DNA from: Candidatus Latescibacterota bacterium
GTDB lineage: Bacteria > Krumholzibacteriota > Krumholzibacteriia > G020349025
Direction of reading: 5' to 3'
NCBI GenBank assembly: GCA_020349025.1
Contig: CP070763.1
Coordinates: 2,156,503-2,193,623, forward strand
Length of the DNA: 37,121 nt
The notes beneath the pieces are model-generated. The model was not told where the DNA came from. It worked only from the letters and a program-made list of their open reading frames with translations, and ran no database searches. Of the stretch, positions 12,710-28,913 are shown piece after piece; position 1 is the stretch's first letter; every line of letters begins with the position of its first letter. The position numbers were made by a program, and so were the translations under genes.

Positions 12710-13099
12710 ATGTCCGACAGCACACCCCGGCCGACCGACGCGGAGCTCGAAATCCTCAAGGTGCTCTGGGAGCGCGGGCCCAGCACGGTCCGCGAGATCC
12801 AGGAGATCCTCAACGGGGTGCGGCCCACCGGCTACACGACAGTCCTCAAGTTCCTGCAGATCATGACGGAGAAGGGCTTGGTCGACCGCGACGCGAGCCA
12901 GCGCACCCATGTCTACAGGACGCGGCGTTCCGAGGAGCAGACGCAGAGCCAGCTCGTTCGTGAGCTGCTCGGCCGCGCCTTCGGCGGCTCGGCTGCGAAG
13001 CTCGTCATGCAGGCGTTGTCGACGCGCAAGGCCACAGCCGGCGAGCTCGCCGAGATTCGACGCATGTTGGATGAGCTGGAAGGAGGCGACGCCACGTGA
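12710..13099 (+). CDS. blaI: BlaI/MecI/CopY-family transcriptional repressor
   Basis: A 129-residue winged-helix repressor. The N-terminal DNA-binding domain (about 8-75) has the family pattern PTDAELEILKVLWERGPSTV, then GYTTVLKFLQIMTEKGLV and a wing with YR. The C-terminal helical part (about 85-125) would mediate dimerisation and be the cleavage target of the partner protease. The stop overlaps the GTG of the M56 gene as GTGA. In the classical system BlaI represses until BlaR1 senses a ligand and triggers its proteolysis. Here the sensor domain is replaced by repeats, so beta-lactams are unlikely to be the signal. A candidate operator lies 105 bp upstream. Confidence 0.92.
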   Translation: MSDSTPRPTDAELEILKVLWERGPSTVREIQEILNGVRPTGYTTVLKFLQIMTEKGLVDRDASQRTHVYRTRRSEEQTQSQLVRELLGRAFGGSAAKLVMQALSTRKATAGELAEIRRMLDELEGGDAT

Positions 13100-15654
13100 G
13101 CGCTCTCCTCGAGCCCCACGAGTTGCAGGCTCTCGGTTGGACACTCGTGCACTTCCTCTGGCAGGGCGCCGCCATCTTCCTGGTGCTCGAAGGCGTCCTG
13201 TTGCTCTTGAGAAGGCATTCACCGCACACGCGCTACGTCGCCGCCTGCGGCGCGATGCTCCTCATGGCGTGGTCCCCCATCGGAACCCTGCATCGAGAGC
13301 TGGACGGTGCGCGCCTGGCGCAAGTCGAGAGCGCGAGCACGACGCAACCCGCGAGCGGAGGCGCAACGCCGCTCGACAGCGGTTGGTTAACGCAGCACGA
13401 GAGCGGCCGCGTGACGCCGGTGGACCGCGGCACGCTGGAGCGCATCGACGCAGCGTCACGGTCCGCACCGGTGTCGGCTCCGGTCGACGCGGCTTCGCTC
13501 GACAGCCGCAGGCGCGGAAGTTCGCCTCACCTTTTGGCACACGACGAGAAGAGACGCCATCTCACGTCGTTCGCGGCCGAAGCAGCGGCGCCAGGAGACA
13601 CGGCCACGCTTCTGCGCCGCTGGCTGCGTGCTGCCGAGGGCGTGCTCGAATCGCAGTTGCCACGCCTGGTCGCGATCTGGATTGCAGGCGTCCTTCTGCT
13701 CTGTGCGCGTCTGGCGGGCGGTTGGGCGCAGGCTCAACGACTGCGTGGACGCGGCACGCGTCCGGCGGCTGCCGCGCTGCAGGCAAACGCGGCGCGTCTG
13801 GCGTCGCGGCTGGGAGTGCGACGCGCCATCCGCGTCTTGGAGTCGACGGTCGCTGAGGTGCCCACTGTCGTGGGCTGGCTCCGGCCGGTCGTTCTCTTTC
13901 CCGCTGGCGCCATCGCGGGGTTGCCACCGCAACATCTCGAGGCGTTGCTGGCGCACGAGCTCGCGCACGTTCGGCGACACGACTACTTAGTGAATCTTCT
14001 GCAGACTCTGGTCGAGACGCTCCTCTTCTACCACCCGGCGGTGTGGTGGGTGTCGAGCCGCATCCGTCACGAGAGGGAGCACTGCGCCGACGATCTGGCC
14101 GTGCACGCGTGCGGCGACCGCGTCTTGGTTGCACGTGCGCTCACGGCGATGGAGGAGCTGCGTCTGAGTCCGCTCCATCCCGGTGTGGCGATCGCGGCGA
14201 ACGGCGGCAGCCTCGTGTCGCGCATCCAACGCCTGCTCGGCCGCACACGCGGCTCCGGAGCGCCTCGCGGCGCGCTCGGTCCCACGATGTTGGTGGCGAC
14301 TCTTCTCCTCGGCGTGGGGTTGCAGCGCGCGGTCGACGCGGGCGCTGCGATCGAGTCGCAGCGTGGGGAGATGGTGGTCGCGGGATCGAGCCACGCAAAC
14401 CATTCCGACACTGGGGTGCTGGGCCCGGAGACTGCATTCCATGGGGAAGCTCAGCCAGCGTCGCAGCTTCGAAGCCCAGCACACCCCCAAGCGCGGCCCG
14501 CCGTCGAGCCGCAGCCCGCGCCGCACCGCGCCCACGAAGCGTCGGTGGACGTGATCGTGAGCCTCACGTCCCAGGGTGTGGCGCCCGAATTCCTGCGCCA
14601 GATGGAAGCGTTGGGCTTCGTGGACCTGAACGATGTGCTGGCCCTGCATCAGCATGGGGTGCGGCCGGCCGGAATCCGTACGCTCCGCGACCTCGGCTAC
14701 GACCTGGATGCCGACGCACTCGTCACACTGCAGATCCAGGGCGTGGATGCGCGCTACATCCGCGAGTTGGCGCACCTCGGTCACACGCAGCTGAGCGTCG
14801 AGGAGCTCGTCGGACTGAGAATCCACGGCGTCAGTGCGCGTCGCATTCGCGAGCTCGCCCGCATCGGCTACGAGGACTTGAGCCTCGAGGAGATCGCGGC
14901 ACTCCACATCCAGGGAGTCGACGCTCGCTACATCCGCGAGCTGCGCCGCGCCGGCTACGAGGATCTGAGCGTGGATGAGCTTGTCGGGCTGCGCGTACAG
15001 GGCGTCGATGCACGCTTCATCCGCGAGCTGCGCCGCGCCGGCCTCGAGGGGCTCGACGTCGACGATGTCGTGACCCTGCGCATCCATGGCGCCAATGCCG
15101 ATTTCGTGCGCGAGCTGCGGCGGCAGGGCTACGACAACGTCGACACGGATGAACTCGTGCGGCTCCTCACCTGCGGTGTGAACGCACACTACATCGAGTC
15201 GATGCGTGAGGTTGGTTTCGAAGAGCTGTCTCTGGAGGAGCTGGTGTGGCTGCGCGATCAGGGAATCGACCCGCGCTACGTGCGCGACATGCGCGCTCTC
15301 GGCCTGCAGGAGCTCGACGTCGAAGAGTGGATCGAGCTGCGCAATCAGGGAGTCGACCCGCGCGACATCGAACGGATGCGCAATCTCGGCCTCGACGAGC
15401 TCACGATCACCGATCTGGTGGGACTGCAAAGCCAGGGACTCCACGCGCGTTACGTGCAGCAGATGATCGACGCCGGCCTCGAGCCGTCGCTGGAGGTGCT
15501 CGTGCATCTGCATCGGCACGGCGTCGTGCCACGGCACCTCCGTGCCATTCGCGACGGAGACGTCTCGCGACTTTCAGTCCAGGATCTCGTCACGCTGAAG
15601 AATGCGGGTGTCGACGGTGAGTTGCTCGACTCGATGCGGAAGGCGAAGCCATGA
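13096..15654 (+). CDS. BlaR1-like M56 metallopeptidase with a long 29-residue repeat domain
   Basis: An 852-residue membrane protease. Helices at about 14-38, 47-64 and 187-210 precede a cytoplasmic M56 zinc-protease domain with H287-ELAH-H291 (HELAHVRRHD) and the glutamate-containing HEREHCADDLA (326-333). A fourth helix lies at about 396-411. In BlaR1 the part after this helix is an external penicillin-binding sensor. Here it is a Pro/Ser linker (about 412-485) and 13 tandem repeats (487-852), consensus LVxLRIQGVDARYIRELRRAGYEDLSVDE, predicted as helix-turn-helix hairpins forming a solenoid. No SxxK-type penicillin sensor is seen. GTG start, coupled to blaI; its stop overlaps the next gene as ATGA. 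It is likely an envelope sensor that cleaves BlaI. The ligand is unknown. Confidence 0.88.
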   Translation: MSALLEPHELQALGWTLVHFLWQGAAIFLVLEGVLLLLRRHSPHTRYVAACGAMLLMAWSPIGTLHRELDGARLAQVESASTTQPASGGATPLDSGWLTQHESGRVTPVDRGTLERIDAASRSAPVSAPVDAASLDSRRRGSSPHLLAHDEKRRHLTSFAAEAAAPGDTATLLRRWLRAAEGVLESQLPRLVAIWIAGVLLLCARLAGGWAQAQRLRGRGTRPAAAALQANAARLASRLGVRRAIRVLESTVAEVPTVVGWLRPVVLFPAGAIAGLPPQHLEALLAHELAHVRRHDYLVNLLQTLVETLLFYHPAVWWVSSRIRHEREHCADDLAVHACGDRVLVARALTAMEELRLSPLHPGVAIAANGGSLVSRIQRLLGRTRGSGAPRGALGPTMLVATLLLGVGLQRAVDAGAAIESQRGEMVVAGSSHANHSDTGVLGPETAFHGEAQPASQLRSPAHPQARPAVEPQPAPHRAHEASVDVIVSLTSQGVAPEFLRQMEALGFVDLNDVLALHQHGVRPAGIRTLRDLGYDLDADALVTLQIQGVDARYIRELAHLGHTQLSVEELVGLRIHGVSARRIRELARIGYEDLSLEEIAALHIQGVDARYIRELRRAGYEDLSVDELVGLRVQGVDARFIRELRRAGLEGLDVDDVVTLRIHGANADFVRELRRQGYDNVDTDELVRLLTCGVNAHYIESMREVGFEELSLEELVWLRDQGIDPRYVRDMRALGLQELDVEEWIELRNQGVDPRDIERMRNLGLDELTITDLVGLQSQGLHARYVQQMIDAGLEPSLEVLVHLHRHGVVPRHLRAIRDGDVSRLSVQDLVTLKNAGVDGELLDSMRKAKP
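14554..15651 (+). repeat. 13 degenerate 87-bp coding repeats (M56 protein)
   Basis: Twelve full units and a 22-residue final one. Most units are 29 residues (87 bp); units 1, 2 and 11 are one or two residues shorter. Invariant or near-invariant positions are L4, G8 and G21, with a charged pair at the end. The units differ strongly at the DNA level, so the array is old and not a recent slippage expansion. Confidence 0.85.
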
Positions 15655-16781
15655 AGAGAAAGATCGCGTGGGCCCTTGTGGGTGTGGCGTTGATGCCCGC
15701 CTGGGCGCTGGGTGAGGTGCGCGGCACCTGGTTCGCCGAGCTGGAGGTGGACGAAGTCTGGATCGAGATGCGCTCGCGGTCGGGCCGCCGCAGCTTCCAG
15801 ACCAGTATCGAGGTGCCCATCGAGAAGCTCGAAGGTGTCGAGCGCCAGGTGCTGGCGGCGCGCAAGCAGGAGGTGCAGTTCGCGCTCGTCCGTGAGCCGG
15901 GTCGCTTCCACTTCGAGGGGGAGTTCGACGACGGGATCGGCTCCGGGAGCTTCCGCTTCGAGGTCGATCCCAGCTTCAAGGCGGGGCTGGAGAAGCGCGG
16001 CCATCGCTCGCTGCGCGAGCGCGAGCTCGCAGTCCTGGCGCTGCACGACATGACGCTCGTGTGGGTGGACCGTCTGGCGGAGCTCGGCTACGACGATCTC
16101 ACCCGGGATGAGCTGATGGCGGTAGCAATCCACGAGGTCACCCCAGACTTCGTGCGTGAGATGCAGGAGGCCGGTTACTCCAACCTCGACGTCGACGAGC
16201 TTCTGAGCATGCGCATCCATGGCGTCGATGCCGAATTCGTTCAAGAGATGGAAGGCCTCGGTTTCGGGCGCTCCACCGTGGACGAGCTGCTGAGCTTTCG
16301 CATCCACGGAGTGAGTCGAGAGTTCGTCGAAGAGATGGGCGCGCTCGGTTTCGCCGACCTGCGTGCCGAAGATGTCGTGTCGATGCGCATCCATGGCTTG
16401 CATCCGCAGTTCGTCAGCGAAATGCGCGCTCTAGGCTTCGATGACGCCAGCGTCGACGAGCTGCTTTCGTTTCGCATTCACGGCGTCACGGCGCGCTTCG
16501 TGCAGGAGATGCGCGAGCTCGGCCTGCGCCCCGCGGCCGACGATTGCATCAGCATGCGGATCCATGGCGTCCGGCCGCGCTTCGTCGAGGAGATGGCGGC
16601 GCTCGGCTACACCCATCTCGACGCCGACGATCTCGTCGCCATGGCGATCCACGACGTCGACGCCGATTTTGTCGAAGAGCTGCGCGAGATGGGCTACGAG
16701 GAGCTGTCGGTCGACGACTTGGTGGAGCTGCGGATCCACGGGGTCGATTCCCGCTACATCCGCAGACTGCGCGGAAAGTGA
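15651..16781 (+). CDS. Exported protein with an N-terminal beta domain and nine 29-residue repeats
   Basis: A 376-residue protein with a signal peptide (MKRKIAWALVGVALMPAWALG), so it is likely periplasmic. Residues about 22-118 alternate short polar and hydrophobic stretches (GTWFAELEVDEVWIEM, FHFEGEFDDGIGSGSFRFEV) and look like a small beta-barrel or sandwich. Residues 126-376 are eight full repeats and one partial, consensus LLSMRIHGVDxxFVEEMRALGFxDLDVDE, clearly the same family as in the preceding M56 protein. ATGA overlap with that gene shows tight coupling. It may be a soluble partner, ligand or competitor of the sensor. I do not know a named function for this architecture, though I believe similar proteins occur in Acidobacteria-like genomes. 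Confidence 0.85.
   Translation: MKRKIAWALVGVALMPAWALGEVRGTWFAELEVDEVWIEMRSRSGRRSFQTSIEVPIEKLEGVERQVLAARKQEVQFALVREPGRFHFEGEFDDGIGSGSFRFEVDPSFKAGLEKRGHRSLRERELAVLALHDMTLVWVDRLAELGYDDLTRDELMAVAIHEVTPDFVREMQEAGYSNLDVDELLSMRIHGVDAEFVQEMEGLGFGRSTVDELLSFRIHGVSREFVEEMGALGFADLRAEDVVSMRIHGLHPQFVSEMRALGFDDASVDELLSFRIHGVTARFVQEMRELGLRPAADDCISMRIHGVRPRFVEEMAALGYTHLDADDLVAMAIHDVDADFVEELREMGYEELSVDDLVELRIHGVDSRYIRRLRGK
16026..16778 (+). repeat. Nine degenerate 87-bp coding repeats (exported protein)
   Basis: Units fall at residues 126, 155, 184, 213, 242, 271, 299, 328 and 357. The motif MRIHGV or FRIHGV recurs in most. Within this protein the units resemble each other more than those of the M56 protein, suggesting separate expansion after a common origin. 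Confidence 0.85.
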
Positions 16782-19330: not shown

Positions 19331-20322
19331 CCCAACGCATGCCGGGGGACGTCGTGAAGTTTCGCACGGTTGGGATCGACGTCGGTGGGACCAACATCAA
19401 GATCGCGGCGCTTTGGAACGGCGGAGGCGTCATCTCGGCAGAGAGCATTCCGACGCGCGCGGAGCGCGGGCCGGTCGACGCGGCGGAGCGCATCCTTGTC
19501 ACGATCCGGGCGCTGTTGCAGCGTGAGGGGATCGACCCCGGCGGCATGCATGCCGTCGGTATGGACTGCGCCGGCATCGTCGATCCGGAGCGAAACGTCG
19601 TCATCGATTCGCCCAACCTGCGCTCCTGGGAGAACGACCCGCTGGCGCAGCGCCTCGCCGACCGACTCGGTGTCCCCGTCTACTTGGAGAACGACGTCAA
19701 CGCCATGGCTTACGGCGAGTGGCGTTGTGGCGCGGGGCGCGGTGCGGACCACATCGTCTGTCTGACTCTCGGCACCGGCGTGGGCGGTGGCTTGATTCTC
19801 GACGGCCGCCTCTATCGCGGTGCGCACGGCGCCGCCGGCGAGCTCGGTCACACGACGCTCGATCTCCGCGGCGCGAGCTGTACCTGCCCCAACATCGGCT
19901 GCCTCGAACGCCACGTCGGCGCGGCGTACATCGTCGAGCGCACCCTGCGTCACTTGCAGGAGAGCGCGGCTCCCAGCCGTCTGCGTGACCTCGAACCGCA
20001 GGACATGGCGCCGCGCGACCTGACGCTGGCGGCCGACGCGGGGGACCCGGTCGCCGCGGCCGTTCTGCGCGAAACGGGGGAGTTGCTGGGCAAGGGGCTC
20101 GTGAGCTTCGTCAACATCTTCAACCCGGAGCGCATCGTGGTGGGGGGCGGCATCACCAAAGCGGGCGATCGTCTACTCGAGCCAGCGCGACAGATCGTGC
20201 GGCGGCACGCGATGAGCCTGCCCGCCTCGATGGTGGAGATCGTACCCGCCGAGCTCGGCGACGATGCGGCGGTGGTCGGGGCGACGCTGCTGGCGCTGGA
20301 GCAGCATCCAACGCGTGGTTGA
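19327..20322 (+). CDS. ROK-family sugar kinase (probable glucokinase)
   Basis: ATP-dependent hexose kinase of the ROK family. Phosphate-1 motif GIDVGGTNIK near residue 17, LENDVNAMAYGE with catalytic Asp, GTGVGGGLILDG, the ExGH motif GELGH, and the ROK zinc motif C185-T-C187-PNIG-C192-LE (consensus CxCGxxGCxE, here with Pro for Gly). No N-terminal helix-turn-helix is present, so it is a kinase and not a NagC-type regulator. Three starts are possible: GTG 19327 (GTGA overlap with folC), ATG 19339, or GTG 19354, which has GGGGGAC upstream and gives the most typical N-terminus. Glucose is the likeliest substrate; N-acetylmannosamine or another hexose cannot be excluded. Confidence 0.88.
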   Translation: MTQRMPGDVVKFRTVGIDVGGTNIKIAALWNGGGVISAESIPTRAERGPVDAAERILVTIRALLQREGIDPGGMHAVGMDCAGIVDPERNVVIDSPNLRSWENDPLAQRLADRLGVPVYLENDVNAMAYGEWRCGAGRGADHIVCLTLGTGVGGGLILDGRLYRGAHGAAGELGHTTLDLRGASCTCPNIGCLERHVGAAYIVERTLRHLQESAAPSRLRDLEPQDMAPRDLTLAADAGDPVAAAVLRETGELLGKGLVSFVNIFNPERIVVGGGITKAGDRLLEPARQIVRRHAMSLPASMVEIVPAELGDDAAVVGATLLALEQHPTRG

Positions 20323-20347
20323 AGCGGCGGAGGCGGCGGGGTGTGGT

Positions 20348-20387
20348 GCTCGGGCATCCTGCCCCGGCTTGCGGCCACGTGACGCCG
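20348..20387 (+). repeat. Dispersed intergenic repeat, copy A
   Basis: Forty bases matching copy B near the right edge (37081-37120) at 34 positions: an identical GCTCGGGCATCCTGCCC block, a 14-base variable part (8 identical), and an identical GTGACGCCG. The first block can form an inner hairpin, GGGCA-TCC-TGCCC. Both copies lie just downstream of a coding gene. Confidence 0.7.
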
Positions 20388-20585
20388 TCGCAAACACCCG
20401 CACCGCACCCGCCTCCCACTCGGCGCGTCCGATTCGTCGGCACTCCACCCGGCGCCGGTCGGCTGTACGCGATCGCATCGATCTGCGCGTATAGAGACCA
20501 AGGGACGGCGGCAGCACGTCGTGCGGAACGGCTCATCGCCGCCGCCGCCGCGGCCGAATGGCACCCGCGTTGCCCGCCACGCGTG

Positions 20586-20612
20586 TTGTTGCAGCATGGA
20601 ATCGCTTATATT
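20586..20612 (+). promoter_or_regulatory. Possible promoter of lptD
   Basis: -10 TATATT at 20607-20612, with TTGTTG at 20586-20591 (15-bp spacer) or TGTTGT at 20584 (17-bp spacer) as -35. Transcription from about 20620 leaves a leader of about 120 nt before the GTG at 20742. Confidence 0.45.
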
Positions 20613-20741
20613 GACGACGGTCCTCCGACGGGGAGAGCCGGCGTGCGCAGGAGGCGAAGGGTGGATGTGTGGAGGCGCGGGCCCGCTCCCGTTGCCCCTG
20701 AAGAGCCTGCCCGGGTCCACCCCTGCGTGGAGCCGGATGAC

Positions 20742-23700
20742 GTGAGACCCCGAAGCGAAACTCGTCATCCTGCCGACGCGGCACGCGCGCGCCGTGCTTC
20801 GGCGCGAGTGGGCGTGCGTCCGCTCGCCGGGTGGTGCGCGCTTCTGACGTGCGTTGCGCTGCTGCCCGTGCTCGGTGCGGCGCAGGAGGAGGAGGGGCGG
20901 CGCTACAAGCTCACCGGCAAGCAGATGCGCATCGACCCCGTACGCAACGTCCACACCTTGACCGACAGCGTGCGTCTGGAGTACGGAACCGCCACCGTCG
21001 TCAGCGACCGTGCGGTGTCGCACGGCTCGCAGGGGCAGGAGCACGTCTACTTCTACGACAACGTGCGCATCACCGACCGCGCCGTCGAGATGACGGGCGA
21101 CGTCGGCGAATTCGTACGCGAGCTCAACTACGCAGAGCTGCGGCAGAACGTCGTCATTCGTGACTCGACCGGAATCATCCGCGCGCAGCGGGCGCGATAC
21201 TACCGCAACGAACGCACGCTCTGGTTGTGGGGCGACGTCGACTTCCAAGACCCGAAAACGCGTGTCCAGGCCGACAGCGTCCACTACATGGAGGACCAGG
21301 CGATCGGCGAAGCTTTCGGTCACGTCGTCATCACCGACATGGAGAGCGGCTCCATCGGCCGCGGCCCCCACGCCACCTACGACCGCAACAGCGGCCAGGC
21401 GCAGCTCCTGCGCGAGTCGGTGCTGTCGCTTCGCGATGACGCCGGCCAGCTGACCGAGGTCTACGCCGACAGCGTGGACTACGACACCGAGCGCAACGTG
21501 GTGCGTGCGTACGGCGACGTTCGCATCCTGCATGGCGACACCGAAGCGCTCGCCGACTCGGCACTGCTGTTCCAGGACAGCAACGACCTCGAGCTGCGCG
21601 GGCGGCCGTCGGTGCATCAGGGCAACTCGCGCATCACCGGAAACGAGATCGACGTCGACTACGGCGGTGGCCAGGTGGAGCAAGTCGTGGTGCGGCGAAA
21701 CGCACGCCTGGTGCAAACGCGCGCCGACACGCTCCTCGTCGCCGAACCCAACGTCGTCCAGGGCAATGCCGCCGTCATGGAGTTCGAGTCGGGCCAGCTC
21801 CGGCGCGCGGTGGTCAGCGGTCGTGGTTCCAGCACCTTCGTTCCGGCGATGGATCGACGCGACCGTCTGGCCCTCAACGAAGCCACCGCCGATTCCATCG
21901 TCATCCTCTTCGAGCAGGACGATGTCGAGGAGGTGCTGTTCATCGGCAACGCCAGCGGCACCTACCGATTCTACGAGGGCAACGTGGACTCGCTGCGCCA
22001 GCGCCGGCCCGCACAAGTGGACAGTGTCTTCGGCGTCGTGGTTGCGGACACGACCGCGTTCGACTTTCGCAAAGAGGCGCAGGTCGTCGAGTACAGCGGT
22101 GAACGCATTCTCTATTTGACCCCGATCAACGATCTGCACATCAGCGGCTCGGCGGATGTCTTCTACGAGAACCGCACGCTGCGAGCCGGAAGGATCACTT
22201 TCGATGCCGATACGGACGAGCTCACGGCGCGTGAGAACCCCATCTTGATCGAGGGCACGGACCGCCTCTACGGCACCGAAATGGGATACGACATGGAGAG
22301 CCGCAACGCCTACGTGGACGCTGGTGAAACGGAGTTCGACCAGGGCTACTACCGCGGCGAGCGCATCGTGCGCCAGCCGGACGGCTCGCTTCGTGTCGGC
22401 GAGGCCCGGTACACGAGCTGCGACCTCGCGGGTCCGCACTACAACTTCAAGAGCAAAGAGATGAAGATCGAGTTGAAGGACATGGTCGTGGGCCGACCGG
22501 TGGTCCTGCATCTGGGCCACGTCCCGGTGCTCTACCTTCCCTTCTTCTTCAACTCGGTCAACGAGGGGCGGCGTTCCGGGTTCATCCAGCCGCGCGTCGA
22601 TTTCGGACTCGGCAGCAACAGCCGCTTCATCCGGGGTCTCGACTACTACTGGGCTGCGAGCCAGTACTGGGATCTTCTCTTGTCGAGCTCCTACACGGAG
22701 CGCGATCGCGTGGATCGCTCGAGCGTGCAGGCGGTGCTCGCCAACCTGCAGGGCACGCGCAACATCCAGGTGTCGGCAAACCTGCGCTACAAGGTTCGCT
22801 ACAACATGGAGGGCAATCTGCAGTACAGCCGCTCCGACGACATCGACTCCGATGCCAGCTTCGTGACCTGGCGTGGCTCGCACCGCCAGACGATCGGTCA
22901 GAACATGACGCTGAACGGCACACTCGATTTCGCCAGCAACGATCTGGCGGTGCGCGTCAACAACCGCAACACCGACTTCGAACGTGCCCGCCAGCGACAG
23001 CTGACCTCGAGCCTGACCTTCACGCGACGCGGAGGCTTGGCGACCACGACCATGAGCCTGCAGCGGCGCCAGATCATCACGCCGGACGAGAGCTTCATCG
23101 ACCGCCCGATCGTGAGCCAGACGCTCCCCAGCTTCTCGGTGCGCTTCCGTTCGATCCGCTTGGCCCCACGCCCGCGCGATCCGCGCAGCGCGTCCTGGAT
23201 CCAGAACTTCCTCAGCGAGCTGCAGTTCTCGCCGAACCTCAACTTCCGGCATACGATGGACGACATCCTGAGGAAGCTGGAGATCGGCGTCGGACCGACC
23301 GGCACGGTGCCCGGGCCGAGTGACCCCGGGCGCGCGGACACGCTCGTGGTTGGCGGCGACTCCCTGCAGAGCACGAACCGCACGCCGACGATCCTCTTCG
23401 AGGAGACGCTGCGGCGATACGAGGCCTCCACCTCGGTGGCGCTGGCGCGCCAGGGCACCGTGGGTTTCCTGAGCGTGACGCCGTCGGTGTCCTACTCCGA
23501 GTCGTACGTCGATGACGACCGCAACCCGCTCGCTTTCGGTGACCGTTTCACGCGCAGCGTGCGTGCCAGCATCGCGACACAGACACGCTTCTTCGGCTTC
23601 TTCTATCCGAAGCTCGGGAGCCTGACGGCGCTGCGACACACGATCGAACCGCGTGCGACCTGGTCGTGGACGGCGGCCCCGGGTCGGCGCCCGCGCCAGT

Positions 23701-24485
23701 CGGTGGCGCTCAGCCTGAGCAACCGGATCGACATCAAGTACCGCGCCGAGGAGGAGGAGCGCCGACGCGACGGCCTCTTGGATTGGGCGTTGAGCACGAG
23801 CTACGATCCGGATCGGACCGCGCTCATCGATGGTCAGACTGTGGGGCGAGAGTGGGCCGACATCGCCAGCACGCTCACGCTCAATCGCCAGGGGCCCTTC
23901 CGCGTCACGGTGACGCAGGTGTTCGATCCGTACAGCGGCAAGATCGTCAGCACCTCGGTCCCGCTCACGCTGCGCTTCTCCGGTCGCTTTCCCGACTTCG
24001 CTGCCGCCGAGGAGGATGCGCCGCAGAACCGCGTCGTCCGGGAGGAGGGGGAGCCGGAAGCACCGACGGACTCGCTCCGCCTGGAGGACCAGTGGGGGTT
24101 CCAGCCGCGAGCCGAGGACCCGCTCCGGGAGATCGAACCCATCACCCGGGCGGGTCCGGGCGGCGAGCTGGGCTGGGATGTGGGGCTGAGCTACTCGTTC
24201 CGGCGAGCCCAGGGGCGCAACATCCCCAGCAGTATCGGGGTGTCGGCTGGGATTCGTCCAACGCGCAACTGGACGCTGCGCTACCGCGCCAGCTTCGACC
24301 CCAGGACGAACAAGATGACCAACCCCGGGATCTCCATCGAGCGCGACCTGCACTGCTGGACCGCGAGCTTCGCGCGCGTCTTCGATGCCTTCGAAGACGA
24401 GTGGCGTTACTATTTCCGCATCTACGTGAAACGGCACCAGGACGAGCTGTTCCTGGAGTCGGGCGACCGCAGCTACGGGCTGTAG
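20742..24485 (+). CDS. lptD: LptD-like LPS-assembly outer-membrane protein
   Basis: Very large LptD/OstA-type protein (about 1247 residues), expected to insert lipopolysaccharide into the outer leaflet. A signal peptide (WCALLTCVALLPVLGAAQ) leads into an extended OstA/LptA-like beta-jellyroll region (about 50-590), with repeated RADSVxY, DVDFQDP and SGSADVFY type strands. The barrel follows (from about 600, GFIQPRVDFGLGSNSRFIRGLDYY) and runs to the end, with many alternating aromatic strands. E. coli LptD is about 780 residues, so both parts are enlarged. This resembles LptD of FCB-group bacteria. Start choice: GTG 20742 has GGAG upstream, while GTG 20808 gives a shorter, more standard signal peptide. 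I see two Cys close to the barrel start and end, but cannot confirm the E. coli disulfide pattern. Confidence 0.85.
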   Translation: MRPRSETRHPADAARARRASARVGVRPLAGWCALLTCVALLPVLGAAQEEEGRRYKLTGKQMRIDPVRNVHTLTDSVRLEYGTATVVSDRAVSHGSQGQEHVYFYDNVRITDRAVEMTGDVGEFVRELNYAELRQNVVIRDSTGIIRAQRARYYRNERTLWLWGDVDFQDPKTRVQADSVHYMEDQAIGEAFGHVVITDMESGSIGRGPHATYDRNSGQAQLLRESVLSLRDDAGQLTEVYADSVDYDTERNVVRAYGDVRILHGDTEALADSALLFQDSNDLELRGRPSVHQGNSRITGNEIDVDYGGGQVEQVVVRRNARLVQTRADTLLVAEPNVVQGNAAVMEFESGQLRRAVVSGRGSSTFVPAMDRRDRLALNEATADSIVILFEQDDVEEVLFIGNASGTYRFYEGNVDSLRQRRPAQVDSVFGVVVADTTAFDFRKEAQVVEYSGERILYLTPINDLHISGSADVFYENRTLRAGRITFDADTDELTARENPILIEGTDRLYGTEMGYDMESRNAYVDAGETEFDQGYYRGERIVRQPDGSLRVGEARYTSCDLAGPHYNFKSKEMKIELKDMVVGRPVVLHLGHVPVLYLPFFFNSVNEGRRSGFIQPRVDFGLGSNSRFIRGLDYYWAASQYWDLLLSSSYTERDRVDRSSVQAVLANLQGTRNIQVSANLRYKVRYNMEGNLQYSRSDDIDSDASFVTWRGSHRQTIGQNMTLNGTLDFASNDLAVRVNNRNTDFERARQRQLTSSLTFTRRGGLATTTMSLQRRQIITPDESFIDRPIVSQTLPSFSVRFRSIRLAPRPRDPRSASWIQNFLSELQFSPNLNFRHTMDDILRKLEIGVGPTGTVPGPSDPGRADTLVVGGDSLQSTNRTPTILFEETLRRYEASTSVALARQGTVGFLSVTPSVSYSESYVDDDRNPLAFGDRFTRSVRASIATQTRFFGFFYPKLGSLTALRHTIEPRATWSWTAAPGRRPRQSVALSLSNRIDIKYRAEEEERRRDGLLDWALSTSYDPDRTALIDGQTVGREWADIASTLTLNRQGPFRVTVTQVFDPYSGKIVSTSVPLTLRFSGRFPDFAAAEEDAPQNRVVREEGEPEAPTDSLRLEDQWGFQPRAEDPLREIEPITRAGPGGELGWDVGLSYSFRRAQGRNIPSSIGVSAGIRPTRNWTLRYRASFDPRTNKMTNPGISIERDLHCWTASFARVFDAFEDEWRYYFRIYVKRHQDELFLESGDRSYGL

Positions 24486-26227: not shown

Positions 26228-26530
26228 TTGAATCGAACCGATCTGGTCGAGGCGCTATCACAGCGCAGCGGTCTCTCAGCGCCCGTCGTGCGTCAGCTCG
26301 TCGATCTGCTCTTCGGCACCGGTGTGCGGCCCGGTCTGATCGCCGAGACGCTGCGAGCCGGCGACTGCGTGCAGCTGCCCGGCTTCGGGGCCTTCCGGCC
26401 GCGTCGCCTCAGCGCTCGAGCCGGAGTGCATCCGCGCTCGGGAGAGCGCATCCTGATTCCCGCTCGGGTCCAGGCACAATTCCGCCCGGCGGCGGCGCTC
26501 AAGACGCTGCCTGGGAGCGCGGAGCGCTGA
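26228..26530 (+). CDS. HU/IHF-family DNA-binding protein
   Basis: A 100-residue nucleoid-type protein. It starts with TTG at 26228 (AGGGGT upstream) as MNRTDLVEALSQRSGL. The typical HU core is present: helix pair, then GDCVQLPGFGAFRPRRLSAR, HPRSGERILIPA and the closing FRPAAALK. The DNA-binding arm has the Arg-rich ARAGVHPRSGE form. It probably bends DNA as a dimer. No other start within the frame gives the conserved N-terminal helix. It stands alone, with about 200 bp on each side. Confidence 0.85.
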   Translation: MNRTDLVEALSQRSGLSAPVVRQLVDLLFGTGVRPGLIAETLRAGDCVQLPGFGAFRPRRLSARAGVHPRSGERILIPARVQAQFRPAAALKTLPGSAER

Positions 26531-26767: not shown

Positions 26768-28117
26768 GTGACGAGACGGGTGCTTCTCGCCCTCTCCGTG
26801 ATCGCAGCGTCCTGGGGCCTCTCCAGCACACAGATCGAGGGCAAGGACCGCCCACCCGAAACCGAGCTCGTCTTCCTGTACCACAGTGACACGAAGGGCG
26901 AGATCGAGGAGTGTGGGTGAAAGTCGGGACGCAAAGGCGGCCTTGCTCGGAGAGCAACGGTCATTGACAAATACCGAAACAACCACGCCAACGTCTTCCT
27001 GGTCGAGGGCGGCAGCTGGGCGCTGGGGCAGAGGGAGTCCCAGAAGTTCCAGAGTCTGTTCGTCGCCGAGATGATGGGCGTCCTGGGTTACGACGTTGTG
27101 AACGTCGGACCCAACGACCTGCTCTACGGTCTCGAAACCCTCGAGGAAACAGCCGCGAAGAGCGGCTTCAAACTGGTCTCGTCGAACATCCTGCGGAAGT
27201 CGACGGGCAAGCACCTGTTCGATCCGTACGTGATCCAGGAGATGGCCGGGTTCAAGGTGGCCTTCCTCGGAGTCGTGCGCGAGAACGCGCGGCTCCAGAG
27301 CGCCACGAAGGAGACGGACGACTTCGCCGTGGCCGACGTCGAGGAGTCGCTGAAGGAGATCATCCCGAAGGTGCGCGAGAAGGCGGACCTCGTGGTGCTC
27401 TTCAGCCATCTCGGAAGCCGCACGAGCCAGAAGCTGGTGGACGAGATCGACGGCATCGACGTCGCATTCAACGGTGGCGATCCGCTCGTCAACTCGCGCC
27501 CGTTCGAGGTTGGCAACGAGGAGGTGGGGTTCTCCCTGGTGTGCTCTGCGGGTGACCGTGGCAAGTACATGGGTGCGCTCCGCCTGGTCGTCAGCGAGCA
27601 TGGCGACATTCTGCGTCACACGCACGAGCTGCACGCGCTCGACAAGAACGTGCCGGAGAACGAGGAAATGCGCGCGCGTCTGAACGACTTCAAAGAGCAG
27701 CTCCGCGAGGTGAAGAAGCGCGAGCGCGTCGAGTCCGTGGTCGGGCAGGAGACGGCCGGGCCGAAGGAGAAGTTCCTCGGTGCCAGTGTTTGCGGCCGCT
27801 GCCACGAGTCCGCCTACGAATCGTGGCGGGAGAGCTCGCACGCGCACTCGCTCGCTTCTCTGGAAGGGAAGTCGATGGAGCAGTCGGGCGATTGCCTGCA
27901 GTGCCATGTCACGGGGCACAAAGATCCGGGTGGTTACAGCGTCAACAAGACCGATCTGGCCATGGTGACCTGCGAGCAATGCCACGGTTACGGCACGCTC
28001 CACGGCTCGGATGGTTTCGTGGCGCGGCCGACCGTGGAGTCGTGCAAGACGTGCCACGACACCGAGAACAGCCCGCACTTCGACTACGCTTCCTACTGGG
28101 AGACGATCGCCCATTAG
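26768..28117 (+). CDS. Candidate selenoprotein: degenerate metallophosphatase-like domain fused to a tetrahaem cytochrome c
   Basis: Read through the in-frame TGA at 26918-26920, the gene encodes 449 residues with Sec at position 51. GTG start at 26768 with AGGGGTGA upstream; signal peptide about 1-22. Residues about 30-290 resemble the UshA/5'-nucleotidase metallophosphatase fold (LVFLYHSDTKGEIE, GPNDLLYG, LVVLFSHLG), but the metal motifs are altered: DTKG for DTHG, GPND for GNHE, GGDP for GHxH. The Sec falls in ECGUKSGRKGGLARRA; from memory, relatives have CGC there. The C-terminal part has four haem c motifs: CGRCH (342), CLQCH (376), CEQCH (402) and CKTCH (426), cytochrome c554-like. Frame continues uninterrupted on both sides, so decay is unlikely. 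Likely a periplasmic redox protein. Followed by a strong terminator. Confidence 0.88.
26939..26962 (+). promoter_or_regulatory. Candidate bacterial SECIS element
   Basis: Stem GGCC-TTGCTC (26939-26948), apical loop GGA (26949-26951), stem GAGCAA (26952-26957), one bulged C (26958), then GGTC (26959-26962). That gives ten pairs including one G-U. The loop begins 28 nt after the TGA, inside the 16-37 nt window accepted for bacterial SECIS, and has G at both of its first two positions. The same bases encode GGLARRATV, so the element is constrained by protein and RNA at once. Confidence 0.75.
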
Positions 28118-28139: not shown

Positions 28140-28913
28140 ATGTGCAGCGAGGGGAACGGGCTCGACCGTTCCCCTCCTCTTTTGTCGCTCCTGTGCGCGG
28201 CGGCGCTGGCGCTGCTTTTGCCGCGCGGCGCGGAGGCGCAGCTCGAAGTGCTGCTGCGCGGCGTCGAGCCCACCGAGCCGCGAGTGGGTGCGTGCGGCCT
28301 GTACCGCTTCGAAGCGCGTGAGCCGAGCGGCGAGCGCAGCGTCGAGTTCCGTGCCTGTATCGAGGAGGGGCCGGAGCGGGACACCGTGCTTCTGCATCTC
28401 TGGTCGGGAGACAGCCTCGAAGCGCGCGTCGAGCTGGCCGCCGAGATGTTCTCGGGTGGCGGATCGCTGCTCGAGCATGTGCGCAGCGTGGTGCAGATCG
28501 AAAAGGGGCGGGCCCAGAGGCTGGAGCCAGAGGATTGGCAGGAGCTGCCAGCGTTGTCTCCGGCACCGCAGCTTCCAGTCGTCGCCGATTCGAGTCTCGG
28601 AGTGCAGCGACACCCCGGAACCGGACTGGAATGCCACGGGCGCTTTCTCGAAGAGGCGCGCAGCAGCACACGTCGGATGGGCGAGGTCGAAGTCACCCAG
28701 GCGGAGGAACGCCGGCTGCAGATCTGGACCGCGCCCGAAGCTCCCATTCTCGGTGTCGTCAGCGCCTGGGCGGTCGTGCGCAGCGAGCGGCGCTTCTCGC
28801 AGCCGATTCCGGGTGTGCCGCAGCGCGGGCCGCGTGTATCCCACTATGCGCTGGAACTGCTCGAATACACGCAGAACGGAGCCCCCGATCATGGCAGCTC
28901 ACCGCATGACTGA
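28140..28913 (+). CDS. Exported protein of unknown function
   Basis: From the ATG at 28140 the protein has 257 residues; a TTG at 28182 would give 243. A signal peptide (LLSLLCAAALALLLPRGAEA) is clear in both cases. The mature part begins QLEVLLRGVEPTEPRVGACGLYRFEA and alternates beta-like strands with Glu/Arg-rich stretches; it ends with HYALELLEYTQNG. Cys residues occur near CGLYRF, FRACIEE and LECHGRF. I do not recognise a family. The ATG start places the terminator of the preceding gene inside this coding sequence, so the gene may be expressed by readthrough, or the TTG may be used. Stop is followed by the exonuclease promoter. Confidence 0.7.
   Translation: MCSEGNGLDRSPPLLSLLCAAALALLLPRGAEAQLEVLLRGVEPTEPRVGACGLYRFEAREPSGERSVEFRACIEEGPERDTVLLHLWSGDSLEARVELAAEMFSGGGSLLEHVRSVVQIEKGRAQRLEPEDWQELPALSPAPQLPVVADSSLGVQRHPGTGLECHGRFLEEARSSTRRMGEVEVTQAEERRLQIWTAPEAPILGVVSAWAVVRSERRFSQPIPGVPQRGPRVSHYALELLEYTQNGAPDHGSSPHD
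28149..28184 (+). terminator. Intrinsic terminator after the cytochrome gene
   Basis: An 11-bp perfect stem, GAGGGGAACGG (28149-28159) with CCGTTCCCCTC (28166-28176), a 6-base loop, and CTCTTTTG directly after. It begins 31 bp beyond the cytochrome stop and overlaps the start region of the next gene. Confidence 0.8.

Follow-up and report, generated by a model that had tools for sequence, protein, structure and literature searches.

The 37,121-nucleotide stretch of Candidatus Latescibacterota bacterium contig CP070763.1 analysed here (the window) contains a gene at 26768-28117 with an in-frame TGA at its 51st codon, and the comparative evidence makes it very likely that this TGA is decoded as selenocysteine (Sec) and that the gene is a real selenoprotein gene. 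The predicted product is a periplasmic member of the NCBIfam family NF041198 in which a 5'-nucleotidase-type fold bears a Cys-Gly-Sec loop and is followed by a four-haem cytochrome, and judging from sequence it is probably a Sec-centred redox enzyme. The gene and its parts are listed below, including a hairpin of the bacterial selenocysteine insertion sequence (SECIS) type.

26768-28117, + strand: selenoprotein gene; predicted signal peptide (assigned by eye, not by a predictor), UshA/5'-nucleotidase-type domain and tetrahaem cytochrome domain; 449 residues plus stop
26918-26920, + strand: in-frame TGA, codon 51 of 450, most likely Sec
26939-26962, + strand: bacterial SECIS-type hairpin; core stem 26943-26948/26952-26957, loop GGA 26949-26951, lower stem 26939-26942/26959-26962
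27791-27805, + strand: haem motif 1, CGRCH, residues 342-346
27893-27907, + strand: haem motif 2, CLQCH, residues 376-380
27971-27985, + strand: haem motif 3, CEQCH, residues 402-406
28043-28057, + strand: haem motif 4, CKTCH, residues 426-430

Direct reading of the window confirmed the frame described in the original prediction, which had been made from this DNA alone: a GTG start at 26768 preceded by AAAGGGGTGAAGTC, the TGA at codon 51, and 398 further codons ending in TAG at 28115-28117. The motif around codon 51 reads ECG-U-KSGRKGGLARRA (Cys49-Gly50-Sec51). Genome-wide reassignment of TGA was ruled out, as 13 of the 15 clear window genes checked stop at TGA and the other two at TAG. To follow codon 51 in relatives, 80 genomes of the phylum (Krumholzibacteriota) were searched with the window protein and 90 loci were read, window included, of about 150 among the matches listed; one was an ordinary nucleotidase and was set aside. 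Codon 51 was TGA in 81 of the remaining 89 loci and TGT or TGC in 8, a ratio that describes the loci read and is not a census. The unread matches were weaker, for the most part ordinary nucleotidases or loci lacking haem motifs, and included about 20 haem-less loci without the stop, probably Cys forms, and about a dozen with TGA; four-haem members were all fetched except for contig-end fragments. Sec stood at this position in 67 of 70 other four-haem relatives and Cys in three, and all 70 kept all eight haem cysteines. A Sec-form locus was present in 73/80 genomes, ruling out a sequencing error. The stretch ahead of the TGA keeps the family pattern in the alignment of relatives, and over codons 26-50 the window gene and L020, a locus in the nearest genome, share 20 of 25 residues, the nucleotide changes falling 5, 1 and 5 times on codon positions 1, 2 and 3. 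The original prediction had also called for homologues to be checked for Cys at residue 51. Among the 16 of 48 protein-database relatives that reach this residue, 12 read CGC as anticipated, and the other four, nucleotidase/SoxB-like proteins, were without the motif.

The predicted GGA-loop hairpin is present after the TGA, with a spacing of 28 nt from the UGA to the loop and a bulged C at 26958. Its conservation was assessed on an alignment that was gap-free from the TGA, in which the 6-bp core was scored per cell in the 81 Sec and 8 Cys loci. In the Sec loci 473 of 486 cells were paired (97.3%) as compared to 366 +/- 7, with a maximum of 386, in 500 synonymous-codon redraws. Cells changed on both sides numbered 27 as compared to 6.1 +/- 1.9 in shuffles, a value reached in 0/500, and pairing fell to 35-53% in controls in which the partner was slid. 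Most of the double changes are protein-silent because two of the three double-change pairs connect third codon positions. One of these two links a Leu/Val codon with an Ala/Val codon and occurs as GC, GU, AU, CG, UG and UA (22 double-change rows), and the other links Ala with Arg, where the window's family has UA instead of CG. The 8 Cys loci showed no excess, with 29 of 48 cells paired as compared to an expected 28.1 +/- 2.3, and the full six pairs were found in 72/81 Sec loci and 0/8 Cys loci. As pairing exceeded the synonymous redraws and was without excess in the Cys loci, something other than the encoded protein keeps the hairpin in place, and among the loci sampled it does so only at those with TGA at codon 51.

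The selA, selB, selD and tRNA-Sec genes that the original prediction had asked for were all found above their cut-offs in the source genome, a single contig of 3.84 Mb that is 86.6% complete. tRNA-Sec scored 76.2 bits (cut-off 47), SelB 375 bits (cut-off 242) and SelD 392 bits (cut-off 125), and SelA was above its curated cut-off with an E value of 3e-125. The selD gene itself has one in-frame TGA (L016, G000:C1:1552743-1553666). Across the phylum tRNA-Sec was above the Rfam cut-off in 72/80 genomes, although matches barely above 47 bits may be other tRNAs, as 5 of 14 control genomes were also above the cut-off. Within the window itself Rfam at gathering score gave no match and ARAGORN found no tRNA. 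Codon conservation and the exchange of Sec and Cys, taken with a hairpin that covaries and a full set of Sec genes, support the proposal that Sec takes the place of Cys in this protein. The same genome holds a second UshA-like TGA gene without haem motifs (L097, G000:C1:2901500-2909000, match at 2904730-2905608) with the motif EPCGU-RSGRLGGLARR, which scored 129 bits against NF041198, below the cut-off. Given the in-frame TGAs in selD, the window gene and L097, the source genome most likely encodes three or more selenoproteins. The nearest genome (G001) has three UshA-like TGA loci (L020, L049, L098) together with VKOR and DsbA and, unlike nearly all others, no DsbD match.

The claim that this fusion is new and lies outside the listed selenoprotein families did not hold. 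The window protein scored 287.9 bits (E 1.3e-85) against NF041198 (UshA_like_PCGU, 'UshA-like (seleno)protein'), above the equivalog cut-off of 275; this cut-off is tight, as the N-end-trimmed CGU relative L028 and CGC relative L074 scored 274.8 and 274.6. Over the 519 positions of the model, the N part of the protein matched model 15-267 with 171 bits and the C part matched model 351-519 with 118.7 bits. With the whole protein above the family cut-off and both halves matched, a new family was ruled out, and by these profile matches the UshA-cytochrome fusion is the family's own plan, a UshA part with a multihaem C-terminal part. The family's CxU (or CxC) ahead of a GGLARR helix is present as C49-G50-U51, and residue 51 was U or C in 89/89 loci read. 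The window protein differs in having ECGU instead of PCGU and in the loss of the metal-ligand set in its lineage, and the phylum also holds a clade in which Cys49 is replaced (xGU), six tested members of which scored 186-220 bits, below the cut-off of 275. UshA-like CxU proteins were described as a selenoprotein family of the Global Ocean Sampling (GOS) selenoproteome in 2008 (PMC2398784) and were relisted in 2022 (PMC9312934) and, with NF041198, in 2026 (PMC13188914). The entries for the family in these three papers give COG0737 relatives with Sec in CxU, like the window protein, and in themselves mention no cytochrome domain, neighbourhood or function. Within open-licence PMC literature we found nothing on point for multihaem selenoproteins or MccSep and no work on selenoproteins of Krumholzibacteriota, and papers returned for LptD with selenocysteine were unrelated, judged by title.

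The domain profiles and the predicted fold, with a mean predicted local distance difference test (pLDDT) score of 86.1, supported the proposed architecture of a phosphatase-like domain followed by a four-haem cytochrome. In the model, residues of about 30-320 appear to share the fold of the 5'-nucleotidases UshA and CD73 and of the thiosulfohydrolase SoxB; compared to these the window protein has lost metal ligands, gained the Cys-Gly-Sec loop and ends in a tetrahaem domain where the nucleotidases have their own C-terminal domain. The UshA-like (seleno)protein family 2 (NF049981) belongs to the same superfamily but has a CxxU motif and 262 positions; the window protein gave 48.2 bits (cut-off 140), in a match that stops before the cytochrome. 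Residues 341-407 matched the cytochrome c554 domain PF13435 with 49 bits (gathering score 20.8), and the profile match to cytochrome c554 itself (PDB 1bvb) had an E value of 2.6e-18, the window version being fused behind the UshA-type domain. His358 and His412 were present in 62/62 rows of the alignment of relatives and His449 in 58/62, and these three could be distal haem ligands. By their database names, ExtKL (NF040886) and MccSep (PDB 9wt8) are also single chains with both Sec and c-type haems, but matches to the window protein were weak and confined to the haem part (14.2 bits and E about 0.8). The DSBA domain PF01323 was absent from the nine Pfam matches of the window protein at E up to 1, and a resemblance to DsbA-type thiol oxidases would lie in function alone.

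The ligands of the UshA two-metal site are D41, H43, D84, N116, H217 and H252. This site was not found in the window protein, which has D41 and H214 but K43, S83, P115 and G237 at the aligned ligand places. On the tree the four-residue metal set was lost in 10 of 62 rows, in three to four events, one of them in the window's lineage. Cys49 was lost in one clade (15 tree rows, support 100/100). This Cys-less clade (L064-L095, families f4 and f5) shows AGU, FGU, SGU, GGU and YGU and retains Sec. Sec has thus survived one loss of Cys49 and three to four losses of metal ligands, which is new here, and since Sec and the haems were kept through both kinds of loss, redox chemistry is favoured over hydrolysis. 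All 10 metal-lost rows have Cys49 and all 15 xGU rows keep the metal set, but the suggested link between loss of Cys49 and the kept metal set is weak, as it comes from a single clade. As a working mechanism we infer that SelB would bind the hairpin and insert Sec at codon 51, after which the protein would be exported and its haems attached. The selenolate of Sec may then attack sulfur in a substrate, for which a thiol or disulfide of the periplasm is the best candidate, and electrons would be exchanged between Sec and the four haem groups. The former phosphatase fold would serve as the binding scaffold of the redox enzyme, its hydrolase role gone.

A number of observations weigh against a Sec-centred redox enzyme read through a SECIS-type hairpin. 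The hairpin was significant only across relatives and not as a single sequence: folded alone the window hairpin was ordinary (-14.8 kcal/mol, z -0.94), 33 of 200 shuffles folded as well, and the bulge interrupts its stem. Two of the five covariation measures were less decisive, with pairs changed on both sides (3) reached by 44/500 shuffles and further pair types (10) reached by 10/500. Apart from the search of the 80 genomes, a scan of genome contigs gave at least 122 matches, and the motif pattern was applied to the best 80 of these with one chance match dropped. Among these best 80 were 18 TGA and 11 Cys loci, the remainder being without the motif and many being cytochromes alone. Eight of the TGA loci belong to the phylum, and in the 10 outside it the six-pair register was seen in only 2. 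Within the phylum no Sec-form locus was found in 7/80 genomes (G005, G029, G064, G071, G073, G077, G078). The window protein sits on a long branch (1.29), and D41, D83, H214 and H237 were retained in 51/62 rows (36 with Cys49, 15 without), so that in the wider family a metal role may still apply.

That the TGA is a true stop, leaving a short upstream frame and a working cytochrome that starts downstream (for example at ATG 27071) without Sec or signal peptide, is highly improbable. Public records do list 32 of 48 relatives as shorter proteins that begin downstream of residue 51, such as P0002, with 348 residues starting MMGVLDYD, but gene calls that break off at a TGA would produce just this pattern. 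The downstream starts vary among relatives (query positions 56 to 191) and would leave a c-type cytochrome without the signal it needs for export. A true stop also leaves no account of the 25 codons conserved as protein ahead of it, of a codon that is either TGA or Cys at every locus read, or of a hairpin under selection only with the TGA present.

A metal-dependent phosphohydrolase or SoxB-type thiosulfohydrolase in which Sec is minor or structural is unlikely. The fold invites it, but S83, P115 and G237 occupy ligand places, the histidine of the DxH motif is H in just 3/62 rows, and the window protein scored far below the UshA cut-off (600) and gave 102.9 bits against the SoxB equivalog cut-off of 550. 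Sec and all haems are moreover retained where the metal set is lost. We give slightly more room, while still considering it improbable, to Sec as a metal ligand. On this view, in the majority of family members the selenolate would take over from the lost DxH histidine at a metal site that either holds two metals or is coupled to haem. The near absence of that histidine while the other four metal residues stay in most rows fits this, as do the 15/15 xGU rows with all four, but the window lineage has Sec without the metal set, and the association of Cys49 loss with the metal set is that of one clade.

The gene neighbourhood was compared among the loci, and the neighbours in the window are as follows.

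20319-24485, + strand: LptD open frame, upstream neighbour (PF19838, 110.2 bits); true start further in; two Cys in the mature part
26228-26530, + strand: gene for an HU-type DNA-binding protein, upstream neighbour (PF00216, 67.9 bits)
28140-28913, + strand: downstream partner gene encoding 257 aa; export predicted by eye; modelled as a LolA/RseB-like half-barrel

A member of the LptD cluster was found in 35 of the 37 loci reaching far enough, and the LptD Cys pair was present in 33/33 rows covering both places. An HU-cluster member was found in 56/63 loci and a partner homologue was adjacent in 54/63, the window partner aligning to the relatives' partner with an hhalign probability of 99.0; the window partner itself had no Pfam match. 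The Sec forms share a conserved LptD-HU-selenoprotein-(LolA/RseB-like protein) neighbourhood, which is new here, and the few Cys forms with haems lie outside it. The second Cys of the partner was present in 28/39 CGU rows and 0/17 xGU rows; this may be a single event since xGU is one clade, and we draw no claim from it.

Searches of the 80 phylum genomes for thiol-oxidation enzymes found DsbA in 3 (G001, G002, G052), VKOR in 1, DsbB in none and DsbD_TM in 79. The phylum thus seems to be without known disulfide-forming enzymes, although the loose first pass of this search may miss diverged thiol oxidases. A bold reading of these data, which we regard as unlikely, is that the protein is a selenium-and-haem thiol oxidase that replaces the missing DsbA/DsbB, Sec51 oxidising cysteines of envelope proteins and the haems passing electrons to the respiratory chain. 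Its first substrates would be the two-cysteine LptD encoded alongside and the LolA/RseB-like partner, which has a conserved Cys of its own. However, the seven genomes without a Sec-form locus also gave no DsbA, DsbB or VKOR match, the Sec form persists in all three DsbA-bearing genomes, HU separates LptD from the selenoprotein, and DsbD_TM in nearly every genome indicates that a reducing path exists. Disulfide oxidation is also dispensable in many anaerobes. If the thiol-oxidase reading were true, outer-membrane assembly in the phylum would depend on selenium.

Elsewhere in the window, at 12710-16781, the list of open reading frames shows a small frame resembling a BlaI-type regulator, followed by a peptidase-like frame with many C-terminal repeats of about 25-30 residues (VDARYIRELRRAGYEDLSVDEL). 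The last frame of this region is a second exported-looking protein made of the same repeats; all of these names were given by eye.

The family itself is already catalogued, and the new part is its context across a lineage. Sec and the haems are stable across relatives in which the metal site or Cys49 varies, a pattern suggesting that the enzyme's likely role is electron chemistry centred on Sec. Public annotation cuts many such proteins at the TGA, and their export signal and active site are thereby hidden. With a conserved LptD-HU-partner context in a phylum where disulfide-forming enzymes are scarce, the role of the family becomes directly testable.
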